A stretch of 13,558 bases of DNA, taken from Caldisericota bacterium. Its GTDB lineage: Bacteria > Caldisericota > JANLFM01. The notes beneath the pieces were generated by a model that did not search any database, was not told the origin of the DNA, and saw only the letters and a list, made by a program, of their open reading frames with translations. Made by a program: the position numbers and the translations under genes. Shown in pieces: positions 1 through 4,306 of this stretch. Within the stretch, counting starts at the first letter, position 1. Each line of letters opens with the position of its first letter. The DNA lies in contig JANLFM010000013.1 of the NCBI GenBank assembly GCA_024655865.1, forward strand, positions 39,009-52,566. The letters run 5' to 3'.

Positions 1-600
1 CTCCAGCTCGACAGGCCCTACTGTAGATAGCGTTATCTTTCTTCCCCCAAAATTGCAGCCTCTTTCGTGAGTGAGGGTTTCGATTGCTCCCAGGGTGGCC
101 TTTAGATTAAGAAGGGGTTCGCCCATTCCCATAAAAAGAACTCTGGAAACCTGCACTCCGCTTTCGATCTCCATTCCTACAATCTGGGCCAGGATTTCAC
201 CCCTGGTTAAGTTTCTCCTGAACCCCCCAAGTCCTGTTTGGCAAAAAGAACACTTGACCGGGCAACCTGCCTGGGTGGAGATGCACACCGAGACCCAGCT
301 TTTACGGGAAGTTAAATAATGAAGGAGGACGCTCTCGATCAACTCACCATCCCCCATGCGCCAGAGGTATTTTTCCGTACTATCTCGGGAAACAGAAACC
401 CTTTCCAGTGTGGGAAGAGGGTTAAAATTTGATTTCAGGGTTTCCTGTAACTCTCGGGGTAGGTTGGACATTTGCTCGAAGTCCAGAGTTTTTCTTTTAA
501 AGATCCATTCCCAGACCTGGGAAGCCCTGTACCCGGGCTGTCCCAACTCTTCCAGGTAGGACTTCAGTTCCTCATAACTTAAATCCAGAATTAACCCCAT
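1..600 (-). CDS. rlmN: RlmN, 23S rRNA A2503 / tRNA A37 C2-methyltransferase (3' end cut off)
   Basis: Radical-SAM enzyme that methylates C2 of A2503 in 23S rRNA and of A37 in some tRNAs. I translated the minus strand from ATG at 600-598; 200 residues are visible, about 58% of the usual ~345, and the frame is open to base 1. Seen: an N-terminal helical domain (about 1-70), a Glu in an IESVLL segment (E89, aligning with the general base of E. coli RlmN), the radical-SAM CxxxCxxC cluster at C113, C117 and C120, a Cys seven residues earlier (C106, matching E. coli C118), a GEPL motif at 160-163 and an ITLSTVG strand at 189-195. The methyl-carrying C-terminal Cys lies outside the window. The start overlaps the fmt stop by 10 nt. 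RlmN rather than Cfr is favoured by the fmt neighbourhood and housekeeping context. Confidence 0.95.
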   Translation of the reverse strand, partial: MGLILDLSYEELKSYLEELGQPGYRASQVWEWIFKRKTLDFEQMSNLPRELQETLKSNFNPLPTLERVSVSRDSTEKYLWRMGDGELIESVLLHYLTSRKSWVSVCISTQAGCPVKCSFCQTGLGGFRRNLTRGEILAQIVGMEIESGVQVSRVLFMGMGEPLLNLKATLGAIETLTHERGCNFGGRKITLSTVGPVELE

Positions 601-1520
601 GTCTCACCCGGTTCAATTCTGTTTCCCTTGAGAAAAGTGCTCGCAGTCAAGGGCTTTTTCCCTTCAACTTGCAAGACTTCTACTTTTAAAGAGCCCTTTC
701 CGCACCCCACATAAATGTCCTCTTCGTTTACCTCGACCCTTCCCGGAGGAATTACTTTATCTATAACGCTCGCTTTCCAGATTTTTACCCGTATTTTTTG
801 TCCTTTCACAGTCCGGAACGTAAAAGCGCCTGGAGCGGGATTAAGCGCTCTGATCAGGTTTTTGATGCTTTCCGCGGATTCATGCCAATTGATCAAACAA
901 TCAGTTTCTTTAATCTTGGGCGCCCAGGAAGCGTTCTCGGATGTCTGCTTGAGAGGAGTAATCTCGCCTTTTTCCAGTTGGGGAAGCAAGTCGAGCAACA
1001 AATCCGCGCCGACCCATGCCAGGCGGTTTTTCAGCTCTCCAGCGGTTTCCTGGTCGTCAATAGGCACTTCCCTTTGAATCAGGATCGGTCCCTGATCCAC
1101 TTTTTCCGTTAAGAGAAAAATAGAAACACCAGTTACCTTCTCCCCCGCCATAATTGCCCTTTCTACTGGGGCGGAGCCCCGATATCGCGGCAATAAGGAA
1201 GGGTGAATATTTAAAGACCCTATCTTCGGGATTGAAAGAACCTCAGGTGGCAAAATGGGAAAAGCAACCACCACAAAAAGATCCGGGTCCCGCGCCCTCA
1301 GCTCATCGAGGAAAGGGGGGTCATTGAGCCATTGTGGAGTGAGAACCGGAATCCCCAATTCCTGAGCTTTCTTCTTGACAGGTGTGGGCTTAAGCTTTAA
1401 TCCTCTTCCTTGAGGAGAATCTGGTCTGGTAACTACCAGTATTGGTCTATACCGGGAAGCTGACAGCTTTTCCAGTGCCGTAAGCGCAAATTCCGGTGTG
1501 CCAAAAAAAATTATCTTCAT
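591..1520 (-). CDS. fmt: Methionyl-tRNA formyltransferase
   Basis: Formylates initiator Met-tRNA using 10-formyl-tetrahydrofolate, in the cytoplasm. The 309-residue protein matches the family length (E. coli 315). The N-terminal Rossmann-like catalytic domain starts with FFGTPEFA (about 5-12). It has an SLLPRYRG segment and the catalytic triad Asn104-His106-Asp142, from NIHPS and KVDQGP. The C-terminal OB-like tRNA-binding domain is complete (WHESAESI to FLKGN). I chose ATG at 1520-1518, which overlaps the priA stop as TGATG. A TTG one codon upstream (1523) is also possible; an AGAGGA Shine-Dalgarno sits 9 nt before the ATG and 6 nt before the TTG. No peptide deformylase gene (def) lies next to it, although def-fmt pairing is common, so def is presumably elsewhere. 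The last 10 nt overlap rlmN. Confidence 0.97.
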   Translation of the reverse strand: MKIIFFGTPEFALTALEKLSASRYRPILVVTRPDSPQGRGLKLKPTPVKKKAQELGIPVLTPQWLNDPPFLDELRARDPDLFVVVAFPILPPEVLSIPKIGSLNIHPSLLPRYRGSAPVERAIMAGEKVTGVSIFLLTEKVDQGPILIQREVPIDDQETAGELKNRLAWVGADLLLDLLPQLEKGEITPLKQTSENASWAPKIKETDCLINWHESAESIKNLIRALNPAPGAFTFRTVKGQKIRVKIWKASVIDKVIPPGRVEVNEEDIYVGCGKGSLKVEVLQVEGKKPLTASTFLKGNRIEPGETWG

Positions 1521-3517
1521 CAATTCAATTCCTCTGGATCTAATTGTAATTGCATTTCTACCTTCCTGGGAAGGCGGATCCGGTATAAGTTTCTCAATTC
1601 CTCAGGGACTGCTCCCACGGGAAAGCGTACCAAGATTTCTGCTCTCCACCGTCCCCGAAGCTTGTAGTGGAAGCAAGGAATAGGTTCAGTAGCTACAAAG
1701 GAATTATAGGCGTCTAAATACTCTTTGACCTTCCTCGCCGCCTCCCAAAGGGCAGATTTCTCTTCAGCCTCAAAAAGAATGCGCATTATCCTTTTATAAG
1801 GGGGAAATCCTGTCTGCTTGCGAGATTGCAATTCCTCCAGGTAAAAATCCTCATCCAGCCAATCAAGATTCACCTGCCTGGAAACCTGCAAGATGATTTT
1901 TTCTGAGGCCAGGGATTCCAAATTTTTGTACAACTGATACGCCCTTTCGGTTGCGGAATAAAATGGTAAACTCAGGGAGAAATCGAGGTTCACCAGCACG
2001 ACCAAAGAAACAGGAGGAATAGCATGGCCCTGAAGGATGCTTGTTCCCAATAGAACAGAGGAGGGGTTGTCCTTAAAGGCCTCAATTTTGGCGCGAACGG
2101 CCTTCTTGCTTTTAGCTACTTCAGAGTTCACCAGAATTACTAATTCACCCAGTATCGATTTTAATTGCGTTTCCACCTTTTCCAGACCCACTCCCCTGGC
2201 TTTAAGGTTTGTGCCTTTGCAGTTTGGGCAAACGATGGGGATCTCTTCCCGGTGGCCACAGTAATGGCAGATAAGTTCTTCCTGATGAGGTGTTAGGCGG
2301 ACACCGCAGAAAGGACAGCTGAAATCTTCTCCGCAATCTTCGCATTGCAAGCAATTGGCATAACCTTTGCGGTTTAAAAAAACCAGGGTTCTTTTCCCTT
2401 CCAGGGAATTGCGTTTGATGGCATATACAATATCGGGAGCAAGGCCTCTTTCTCCCCGATAGTAGAGAACTTCTCTTAAAATTGCCTTACCCTCTTTTTT
2501 AATTAAAGTGCGATCTCGGTAGGCCTCTAAGTAAGACTCCACAGAAGGGGCTCGAGAAAAAAGGTAAAGATCCGCTCCAGAATTTCGAGCCAAAACCCTG
2601 GTCAGGCCAACAGCCGGAAAATAGGGCGGGCTGAGTACCCGATAGGCCGAGTTTTCCTCTTGAAGGACGCAAATCAGGCCTAAATTCCAAAAGGGTAAAA
2701 ATAAGGAAAGCCAGGTGCCAACGAGAATCAAGGAACTTTCATGCTGACAATTAAAAACTATTTTTCTTCGTACTTTGGGGCTTTGTTCGCCGCTAAAATT
2801 AAGGCATTCAACCCCATCTTTCGCCAGGGCCGAGGAAAGTGGTTCAATCAGGGAGCTCTCGGGCACAAGAACCAGAGCTTGAAGCTTTTGCTCTTGAGCC
2901 TTTCGGAGCAAAGAAAGAAGGAGTTGATATTGTTCCCTCCAAGGAGCCCAGAAGAGGCAGGACTTTGGTTCCTTCTTTACTGGATGTTGCTTTCGAAGAG
3001 GTTCCAAAACCGTATCTATAACTTTTGACTTTAAAAGCAAGGGAAGGGATCTGCTTCCGGGGAAATCTTCCAGATAAGCTTCTCCATTACGCTCTTCCAG
3101 AAAAGCAATGGCCTTTTTAAGGCTCCTACTTCGAGGAAGGAATTGTTTTTCCAGATTGGGATAGGAAGGGGAAAGCGAGATTTTTGTCAAAGCTCTTTTT
3201 AGGGTCACGGGCGAGAGATAATTCAAAATAGGTTTGGGAGATGAAATATAATTTTCCATAATCCAATTAATCATGGCAGCACGGACTTCGTCGAAATATC
3301 TGTTTCCTGTCCGAAGATATACTGCTTTTATCTCCCCCTTGGGTGCTGCAGAGGAAATGACGTATCCCTCAACGATCTTATCCTTCTTCCCAAAGGGCAC
3401 CATTATCCTCTCTCCAACCTGAAGTTTCTCGGAACTCCCATAAGTATAAAGTCCCTCTCCTCCAGGGAGAGGGACATCCACTAATACGTTAAAATAGTAG
3501 GGAAAACCAGCCTTCAC
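1520..3517 (-). CDS. priA: PriA-family primosomal protein N' with degenerate helicase motifs
   Basis: PriA recognises stalled forks and D-loops and reloads the replicative helicase. The 665-residue protein aligns in outline along its full length. The N-terminal 3'-DNA-binding domain is present (FNVLVDVPL to VPFGKK, about 9-45). So are the zinc-binding cysteines C392, C395, C401, C404, C417, C420, C430 and C433, the GVGLEKVE segment (442-449) and the C-terminal domain (FPPYKRIMRI, 571-580). The ATPase motifs are not: the Walker A position (about 187-200) has no GKT, the DEEH box reads QEEN (286-289), SATPS reads SRAPS (321-325), the Lys of the KGH motif is Gln (496), and the VAGRAGR arginine-finger motif is LESLASE (533-539). 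Translocation or helicase activity is therefore unlikely, as noted for actinobacterial PriA. The GTG start overlaps the rpoZ stop as GTGA. The frame has no break, so this is a conserved variant rather than a pseudogene. Confidence 0.9.
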   Translation of the reverse strand: MKAGFPYYFNVLVDVPLPGGEGLYTYGSSEKLQVGERIMVPFGKKDKIVEGYVISSAAPKGEIKAVYLRTGNRYFDEVRAAMINWIMENYISSPKPILNYLSPVTLKRALTKISLSPSYPNLEKQFLPRSRSLKKAIAFLEERNGEAYLEDFPGSRSLPLLLKSKVIDTVLEPLRKQHPVKKEPKSCLFWAPWREQYQLLLSLLRKAQEQKLQALVLVPESSLIEPLSSALAKDGVECLNFSGEQSPKVRRKIVFNCQHESSLILVGTWLSLFLPFWNLGLICVLQEENSAYRVLSPPYFPAVGLTRVLARNSGADLYLFSRAPSVESYLEAYRDRTLIKKEGKAILREVLYYRGERGLAPDIVYAIKRNSLEGKRTLVFLNRKGYANCLQCEDCGEDFSCPFCGVRLTPHQEELICHYCGHREEIPIVCPNCKGTNLKARGVGLEKVETQLKSILGELVILVNSEVAKSKKAVRAKIEAFKDNPSSVLLGTSILQGHAIPPVSLVVLVNLDFSLSLPFYSATERAYQLYKNLESLASEKIILQVSRQVNLDWLDEDFYLEELQSRKQTGFPPYKRIMRILFEAEEKSALWEAARKVKEYLDAYNSFVATEPIPCFHYKLRGRWRAEILVRFPVGAVPEELRNLYRIRLPRKVEMQLQLDPEELN

Positions 3518-3699
3518 GCTGAGTGCGAGCTCTCAGTTTCCATCTCTTCAATTTTTTTCAATGCCGCAGTAAGGGGTTTGACGTTTGTGAGTTTTCCCTC
3601 CTGTTCAATCTGATGCGCCAATCTGGCGGCAGCCACTACTAACCTGTATTTGTTGTGTCCCACTTTTTCCAGAAGTTTCTCCAGTTCAGGGTCTAACAA
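3514..3699 (-). CDS. rpoZ: RNA polymerase omega subunit
   Basis: Small subunit that binds the beta' C-terminus and helps RNA polymerase assemble. The frame is open up to 3783, but that extension lies inside gmk and has no omega character. I chose TTG at 3699-3697, because AAGGAGGAG (3714-3706) sits 6 nt before it. This gives 61 residues beginning LDPELEKLL after the initiator. The family core is visible: NKYRLVVAAARLAHQI, about residues 18-33, and KPLTAALKKIEE, about 41-52. It is somewhat shorter than Bacillus omega (~67). The start overlaps the gmk 3' end by 14 nt and the stop overlaps priA as GTGA. The gmk-rpoZ-priA context supports the call. Confidence 0.88.
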   Translation of the reverse strand: MLDPELEKLLEKVGHNKYRLVVAAARLAHQIEQEGKLTNVKPLTAALKKIEEMETESSHSA

Positions 3700-4306
3700 G
3701 CGGATCTCCTCCTTCCAATAAAGGATGCCTGACCCTGGACACACGGTGTTTTTCCGCGAAAACAATCTTTTCCAGGTCGGCAACTGCTACGTCCAGGACG
3801 TCGTTTATGAGGTAATAATCATAATACGATATGTACTTAAACTCAATTTCTGCAACCTCAAGTCTATGCTGAAGCTGGGAGGGGTTTTCGGTCCCCCGTT
3901 TCATCAATCGCTTCCGGAGTTCCTCCCTAGTGGGGGGTAGTACAAAGATGAGCACGGCTTCCGGCACACAGTTCTTTACTCTCAAGCCTCCTTGTACGTC
4001 TATTTCCAAAATGGCATCTTTACCACTTTGTAGTGCCTCCTCTACAGGGTCTCTGGGCGTGCCATAAAGATCTCCAAAGACTTCTGCCCATTCCAGCAAT
4101 CTCTGGCTTTCGATGTACCTCTGAAATTCAGCTTTGGAAACAAAGTAGTAGTCTTTCCCGCATATTTCGTAGGGTCTGGGCTGACGAGTTGTGAGGGAAA
4201 TGGAGAGATAGGACTCAGGGTGCTTTTCCATATATCTTGATACCAGTGTCCCCTTACCTACTCCTGAGGGTCCAGATATCACTACAAGCAGATTGGGGAA
4301 TCGCAT
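3686..4306 (-). CDS. gmk: Guanylate kinase
   Basis: Phosphorylates GMP to GDP with ATP, in purine nucleotide synthesis and salvage. The 206-residue protein has the typical length. Seen: P-loop GPSGVGKGT (12-20), the GMP-binding segment TTRQPRP (39-45) followed by GKDYYFV (50-56), YGTP (81-84), EIDVQGG (101-107), and the lid Arg region RKRLMKRG. The usual RPGE motif reads RPYE here, a Gly-to-Tyr change that may be harmless. ATG at 4306-4304 is 3 nt after the remA stop, with no strong Shine-Dalgarno, so translation may be coupled to remA. The 3' end overlaps rpoZ by 14 nt. Confidence 0.97.
   Translation of the reverse strand: MRFPNLLVVISGPSGVGKGTLVSRYMEKHPESYLSISLTTRQPRPYEICGKDYYFVSKAEFQRYIESQRLLEWAEVFGDLYGTPRDPVEEALQSGKDAILEIDVQGGLRVKNCVPEAVLIFVLPPTREELRKRLMKRGTENPSQLQHRLEVAEIEFKYISYYDYYLINDVLDVAVADLEKIVFAEKHRVSRVRHPLLEGGDPLVRP
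3706..3714 (-). promoter_or_regulatory. Shine-Dalgarno site that fixes the rpoZ TTG start
   Basis: The minus strand reads AAGGAGGAG, followed by 6 nt and then TTG (3699-3697). The site lies inside the last codons of gmk. It is the strongest ribosome-binding site in this gene group, and it argues against the longer in-frame start at 3783. Confidence 0.75.

Follow-up and report, generated by a model that had tools for sequence, protein, structure and literature searches.

A phylum-wide PriA pseudohelicase in the Caldisericota, probably an ATP-independent platform for DnaB loading

The window, the stretch of 13,558 nucleotides analysed here from a Caldisericota bacterium, carries on its minus strand a priA homologue without helicase motifs (1520..3517, 665 amino acids, GTG start), and the same losses occur throughout the phylum. 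Judged by sequence, the protein is filed as a PriA pseudohelicase and not as a PriA helicase because the SF2 motifs GxTGSGKT, DEEH, SATP, KGH and GRAGR are all replaced. The best explanation, to which we give a probability of roughly four in five, is that this sole PriA is an ATP-independent fork-recognition platform for the loading of DnaB, probably with DciA.

The frame is intact over its 665 codons, as a preliminary description of this DNA had claimed, and both the PriA profile and the domain profiles match above their cut-offs. Orthology over the whole protein is given by TIGR00595 (240.4 bits; cut-off, 230.35). The Pfam models PriA_3primeBD, Zn_ribbon_PriA and PriA_C each exceed their own cut-offs. 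These place a 3'-DNA-binding domain (3'BD) at residues 11-100 (3218..3487, minus strand; PF17764, 30.5 bits, cut-off 22.7), a cysteine-rich zinc region at residues 392-433 (2219..2344, minus strand; PF18319, above cut-off) and the PriA C-terminal domain at residues 573-661 (1535..1801, minus strand; PF18074, 38.6 bits, cut-off 26.9). Among solved structures, bacterial PriAs are the closest by sequence. The gene lies in a housekeeping run ordered remA-type gene, gmk, rpoZ, priA, fmt and rlmN, of which remA, gmk and rlmN were named by eye from the sequence. The fmt gene (591..1523, minus strand; TIGR00460, 268 bits), which overlaps the priA stop, is the usual neighbour of priA, and priA-def-fmt-rsmB-rlmN is a common order; here the run is shortened to priA-fmt-rlmN, with def and rsmB absent from it (window positions 1-1523). 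Directly upstream of priA is an rpoZ-like ORF of uncertain start (3514..3783, minus strand; TIGR00690, 31.7 bits, above cut-off), whose frame, if read from the listed TTG start, shares about 100 bases with the 3' end of gmk; the true start is probably internal to the listed frame.

The helicase motifs were read from an alignment of the window protein with 46 PriAs from named genomes of other phyla. At the Walker A position the octet GVTGSGKT is replaced by WAPWREQY (residues 190-197; 2927..2950, minus strand), so that the canonical G190xT192xS194-G195-K196-T197 reads W-A-P-W-R-E-Q-Y; the replacement has no gap and the lysine position is therefore Gln-196. The Walker B position, also aligned ungapped, holds LQEE for DEEH (residues 285-288; 2654..2665, minus strand), and in this register both the catalytic aspartate and glutamate are lost, being Leu and Gln. 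Motif III is SRAPS for SATPS (residues 321-325; 2543..2557, minus strand). At motif V, GTSIL-QGHAI stands for GTQMLAKGHHF (residues 491-500; 2018..2047, minus strand), with Gln for the KGH lysine (column 496) and one residue deleted, and motif VI is NLESLASE for QVAGRAGR (residues 532-539; 1901..1924, minus strand), where GRAGR (535-539) has become S-L-A-S-E and both arginines are gone. As a control of the method, conservation was scored by column in 80 named PriAs and one Klebsiella PriA, in which the Walker A lysine is 100% conserved, the DEEH columns 99-100% and both motif VI arginines 100%.

The alignment thus agrees with the preliminary description on the absent GKT, on SRAPS, on the Gln of KGH, on LESLASE for VAGRAGR at 533-539 and on a retained zinc site, all eight cysteines being aligned (392, 395, 401, 404, 417, 420, 430 and 433). 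The loss of DEEH holds too, but its reading as QEEN at 286-289 was one residue out of register. That every motif is lost holds for the catalytic residues and is slightly too strong otherwise, as parts of the lobe anchors persist, namely PE in motif Ia, NR-G in motif IV and GT/GH in motif V. The DNA-binding domains had been described as kept, which is borne out for the 3'BD and the C-terminal domain but not for the winged-helix region, where no clear domain is found at residues 105-166.

An AlphaFold2 model of the window protein has a mean pLDDT of 82.6 and is poor only at residues 105-166 and 176-181. The former segment (pLDDT below 50) corresponds to the position of the winged helix in E. coli PriA, and the winged-helix region is not recovered in the model. 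E. coli PriA bound to a fork gives the best structural match (PDB code 8fak; Z 31.3, rmsd 3.5, 597 residues aligned), followed by other PriA structures at Z 26 to 27, with Mfd well below at 17.8. The predicted overall fold is that of PriA, an agreement not independent of homology because the input alignment included PriAs of other phyla and would partly impose it. The first lobe strand ends at residue 190 in the model and the helix starts at 193; as a feature of the model and not an observation, this would leave too little space for a phosphate-binding loop of the usual length.

The phylum is represented by 54 genomes in the collection searched, far too few for it to be the Actinomycetota. The organism is therefore not an actinobacterium, and what had been offered as a wider occurrence on that condition is a loss across a whole phylum. 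With a profile built from the phylum's own PriAs, PriA was found in 49 of the 54 genomes, which span seven families (one spurious match of Mfd length in G052 was left out). Motifs were read in 48 genomes; the sequence of G050 is cut before Walker A and that of G022 after the first motifs. Among the 47 genomes that can be scored, which represent all seven families, the Walker A lysine position is Arg in 42, Gln in five and Lys in none, Gln being confined to the five genomes of the window's family and Arg found in the other six families. The zinc cysteines are present in 47/47 of the genomes covering them at seven positions and in 45/47 at one. Since the loss is common to all 47 scorable genomes it is more than chance. 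The profile search found no PriA in four genomes that are 55-87% complete (G041, G052, G038 and G032), which are probably gaps, and none in G019, rated 96% complete, where PriA may be dispensable or may lie in an assembly gap; without such a gap, G019 would have lost PriA altogether after the loss of its motor. G025 has only the N-terminal part of PriA. Two near-identical priA loci, one cut at a contig end, are present in each of G051 (L044, L045) and G036 (L053, L054), which suggests strain mixtures in these assemblies; the second matches were rejected as paralogues, being near-copies cut at contig ends, that is, strain redundancy.

Decay within the strain, or an error of sequencing or assembly in a gene being lost, can be set aside almost entirely. 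The window does come from a draft assembly of 63 contigs, but the frame is intact with its zinc cysteines unchanged, and the same losses in 47/47 scorable genomes of seven families refute this reading; no clade member with intact motifs was found among them, so the loss is not specific to one strain. Further against decay, dN/dS over the whole gene is 0.10-0.21 in five pairs of close relatives, and PriA is therefore under purifying selection. Individual regions were followed at the positions conserved to 90% or more in PriAs from other phyla. Retention of these sites in the phylum averages 27% for lobe 1 and 35-41% for lobe 2 but 76% for the zinc region, 66% for the C-terminal domain and 94% for the 3'BD, which has just two of them. 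A tree built without the motif columns sets the PriAs of the phylum apart from the rest by a branch supported at 98/98, and the same branch has support of 92 in a quick tree and 98 with the motif columns kept. One loss is the simplest reading of this single well-supported branch, and the phylum's ancestor had probably already lost the ATPase, in a single event, as far as can be read from unrooted trees with long branches. No Deinococcus or actinobacterial PriA for inclusion in the trees was among the plasmid matches listed.

That the protein retains an atypical ATPase, or some other ATP-driven function built on non-standard residues such as Arg for the Walker lysine, is very improbable. The helicase-lobe fold is predicted to remain and motifs Ia (PE), IV (NR-G) and V (GT) are partly kept, as such an enzyme would have it, but the losses extend to the Walker B acids, motif III and the two arginines of motif VI, and a change of Lys to Arg alone abolishes the activity of E. 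coli PriA, the natural equivalent in D. radiodurans being likewise inactive. It is also unlikely, if less so, that PriA has left restart for another DNA role, for example a structural one in recombination or at the replisome. The branches between families are very long and the PriAs across the phylum have no anchors in common but those of the zinc region, 3'BD and C-terminal domain, which would fit such a change of role; against it, these restart-specific parts are the very ones conserved, the window's genome holds no other PriA, and DnaB still needs reloading.

A genome-wide search for a second, full PriA in the window's genome, as the preliminary description had proposed, found none, the other matches having the lengths of Mfd, RecG and UvrB. 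RecG, encoded on the same contig as priA, has intact motifs (GEVGSGKT, DEQH, TATP and GRVGRG), RecG-length matches occur in most genomes of the phylum, and a UvrD-family helicase is present in 52/54. DnaB is found in 54/54 genomes and DciA in 50/54; no DnaD-type domain exceeds its cut-off in any of the 54, and a dedicated DnaC/DnaI loader was not seen across them. Matches to the IstB/DnaC family were rejected as DnaC/DnaI loaders, as they are IS21-like genes or a DnaA-like gene of 430-450 amino acids. In nearly every genome dciA lies about 3.3 kb from the DnaA-like gene (for example G008:C1:394-714 and 3732-3962). The DnaB profile covers about 430 positions, but two dnaB frames are 892 and 683 amino acids long (G018:C11:30418-32988 and G039:C14:10591-12561, respectively), a length that points to a large in-frame insertion, for example an intein, in this family's replicative helicase.

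The preferred reading, a fork-recognition platform, is the likeliest mechanism because it has precedents in E. coli PriA K230R, which has lost ATPase and helicase activity and still assembles primosomes (PMC3325207), and in D. radiodurans PriA, whose natural Lys to Arg change leaves no ATPase or helicase activity and which binds fork DNA and DnaB (PMC4504706). The Caldisericota protein retains the PriA scaffold, in which two helicase-like lobes are combined with the 3' end-binding domain, the zinc region and the C-terminal domain, and would have lost normal ATP binding and hydrolysis and translocation. An abandoned fork would most likely be recognised through the free 3' end of its leading strand and bound through the 3'BD, zinc region and lobes. 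DnaB would then be recruited with no unwinding, probably with DciA, which nearly all the genomes have instead of DnaC, DnaI or DnaD; for Caulobacter it has been proposed that DciA may work together with PriA (PMC9825169). Any clearing of strands would fall to RecG or a UvrD/PcrA-type helicase. The earlier suggestion of PriA as a structural loader is supported in this sense, neither an intact relative nor a second PriA having been found, and the loading step itself is one that we infer. The five genomes of the window's family all have Trp-190, Trp-193 and Gln-196 at what was once the ATP site (2927-2950), and this invariance suggests a new constrained surface. A more speculative and doubtful extension is that the dead ATP site has been rebuilt, with W190-x-x-W193-x-x-Q196 (Arg in the other families) docking DciA, DnaB or SSB to give an ATP-free PriA-DciA restart distinct from the DnaC, DnaI and DnaD routes.

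Phylum-wide loss of PriA motifs has been reported for Deinococcus-Thermus (PMC4504706), and the novelty is less than the preliminary description implied because it overlooked this biochemically proven D. radiodurans pseudohelicase. The PriA pseudohelicase is thus a known kind, and what is new is a further phylum-wide occurrence, probably of single origin. Literature searches returned no report of PriA motor loss in the Caldisericota, nor did the papers searched describe its loss of essentially all catalytic motifs, with a uniform Arg in six families and Gln in the remaining one. Deinococcus-Thermus and Actinobacteria are joined by one more phylum with a motorless PriA, in which an apparently single loss has persisted as the whole phylum diversified. 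That the motor has been lost repeatedly while the DNA-binding and zinc parts stayed is evidence from nature that the indispensable function of PriA lies in recognition and loading and not in unwinding, and the PriA-DciA-DnaB sets of these lineages, which lack DnaC, DnaI or DnaD, offer material for reconstitution.

Among known systems, E. coli PriA K230R (priA300) resembles the Caldisericota protein in the loss of the Walker A lysine and makes an ATPase-dead PriA with primosome assembly a known working state. It is, however, a laboratory mutant with one substitution, whose helicase is intact in all other respects and whose partners are DnaC, DnaT and PriB, whereas the Caldisericota PriA lacks all the catalytic motifs and has DciA as the candidate loader. 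Actinobacterial PriA is annotated as lacking helicase domains (UniProt/HAMAP wording) and is likewise an orthologue with no recognisable helicase motifs in a DciA-bearing lineage. The window protein differs from it in scoring 240 bits with the general PriA models and at most 82 bits with the PRK14873 models, which we take to represent the actinobacterial type. The closest likeness is to D. radiodurans PriA, in which Walker A and B are lost and the DNA-binding parts are kept; the Caldisericota protein is of this type in being a PriA orthologue that has lost its catalytic motifs and is under selection. The Lys to Arg change of D. radiodurans PriA is also that of 42 of the 47 Caldisericota members, the window's family having Gln instead, and the two differ in phylum and in that the Caldisericota pseudohelicase is recognised from its sequence.
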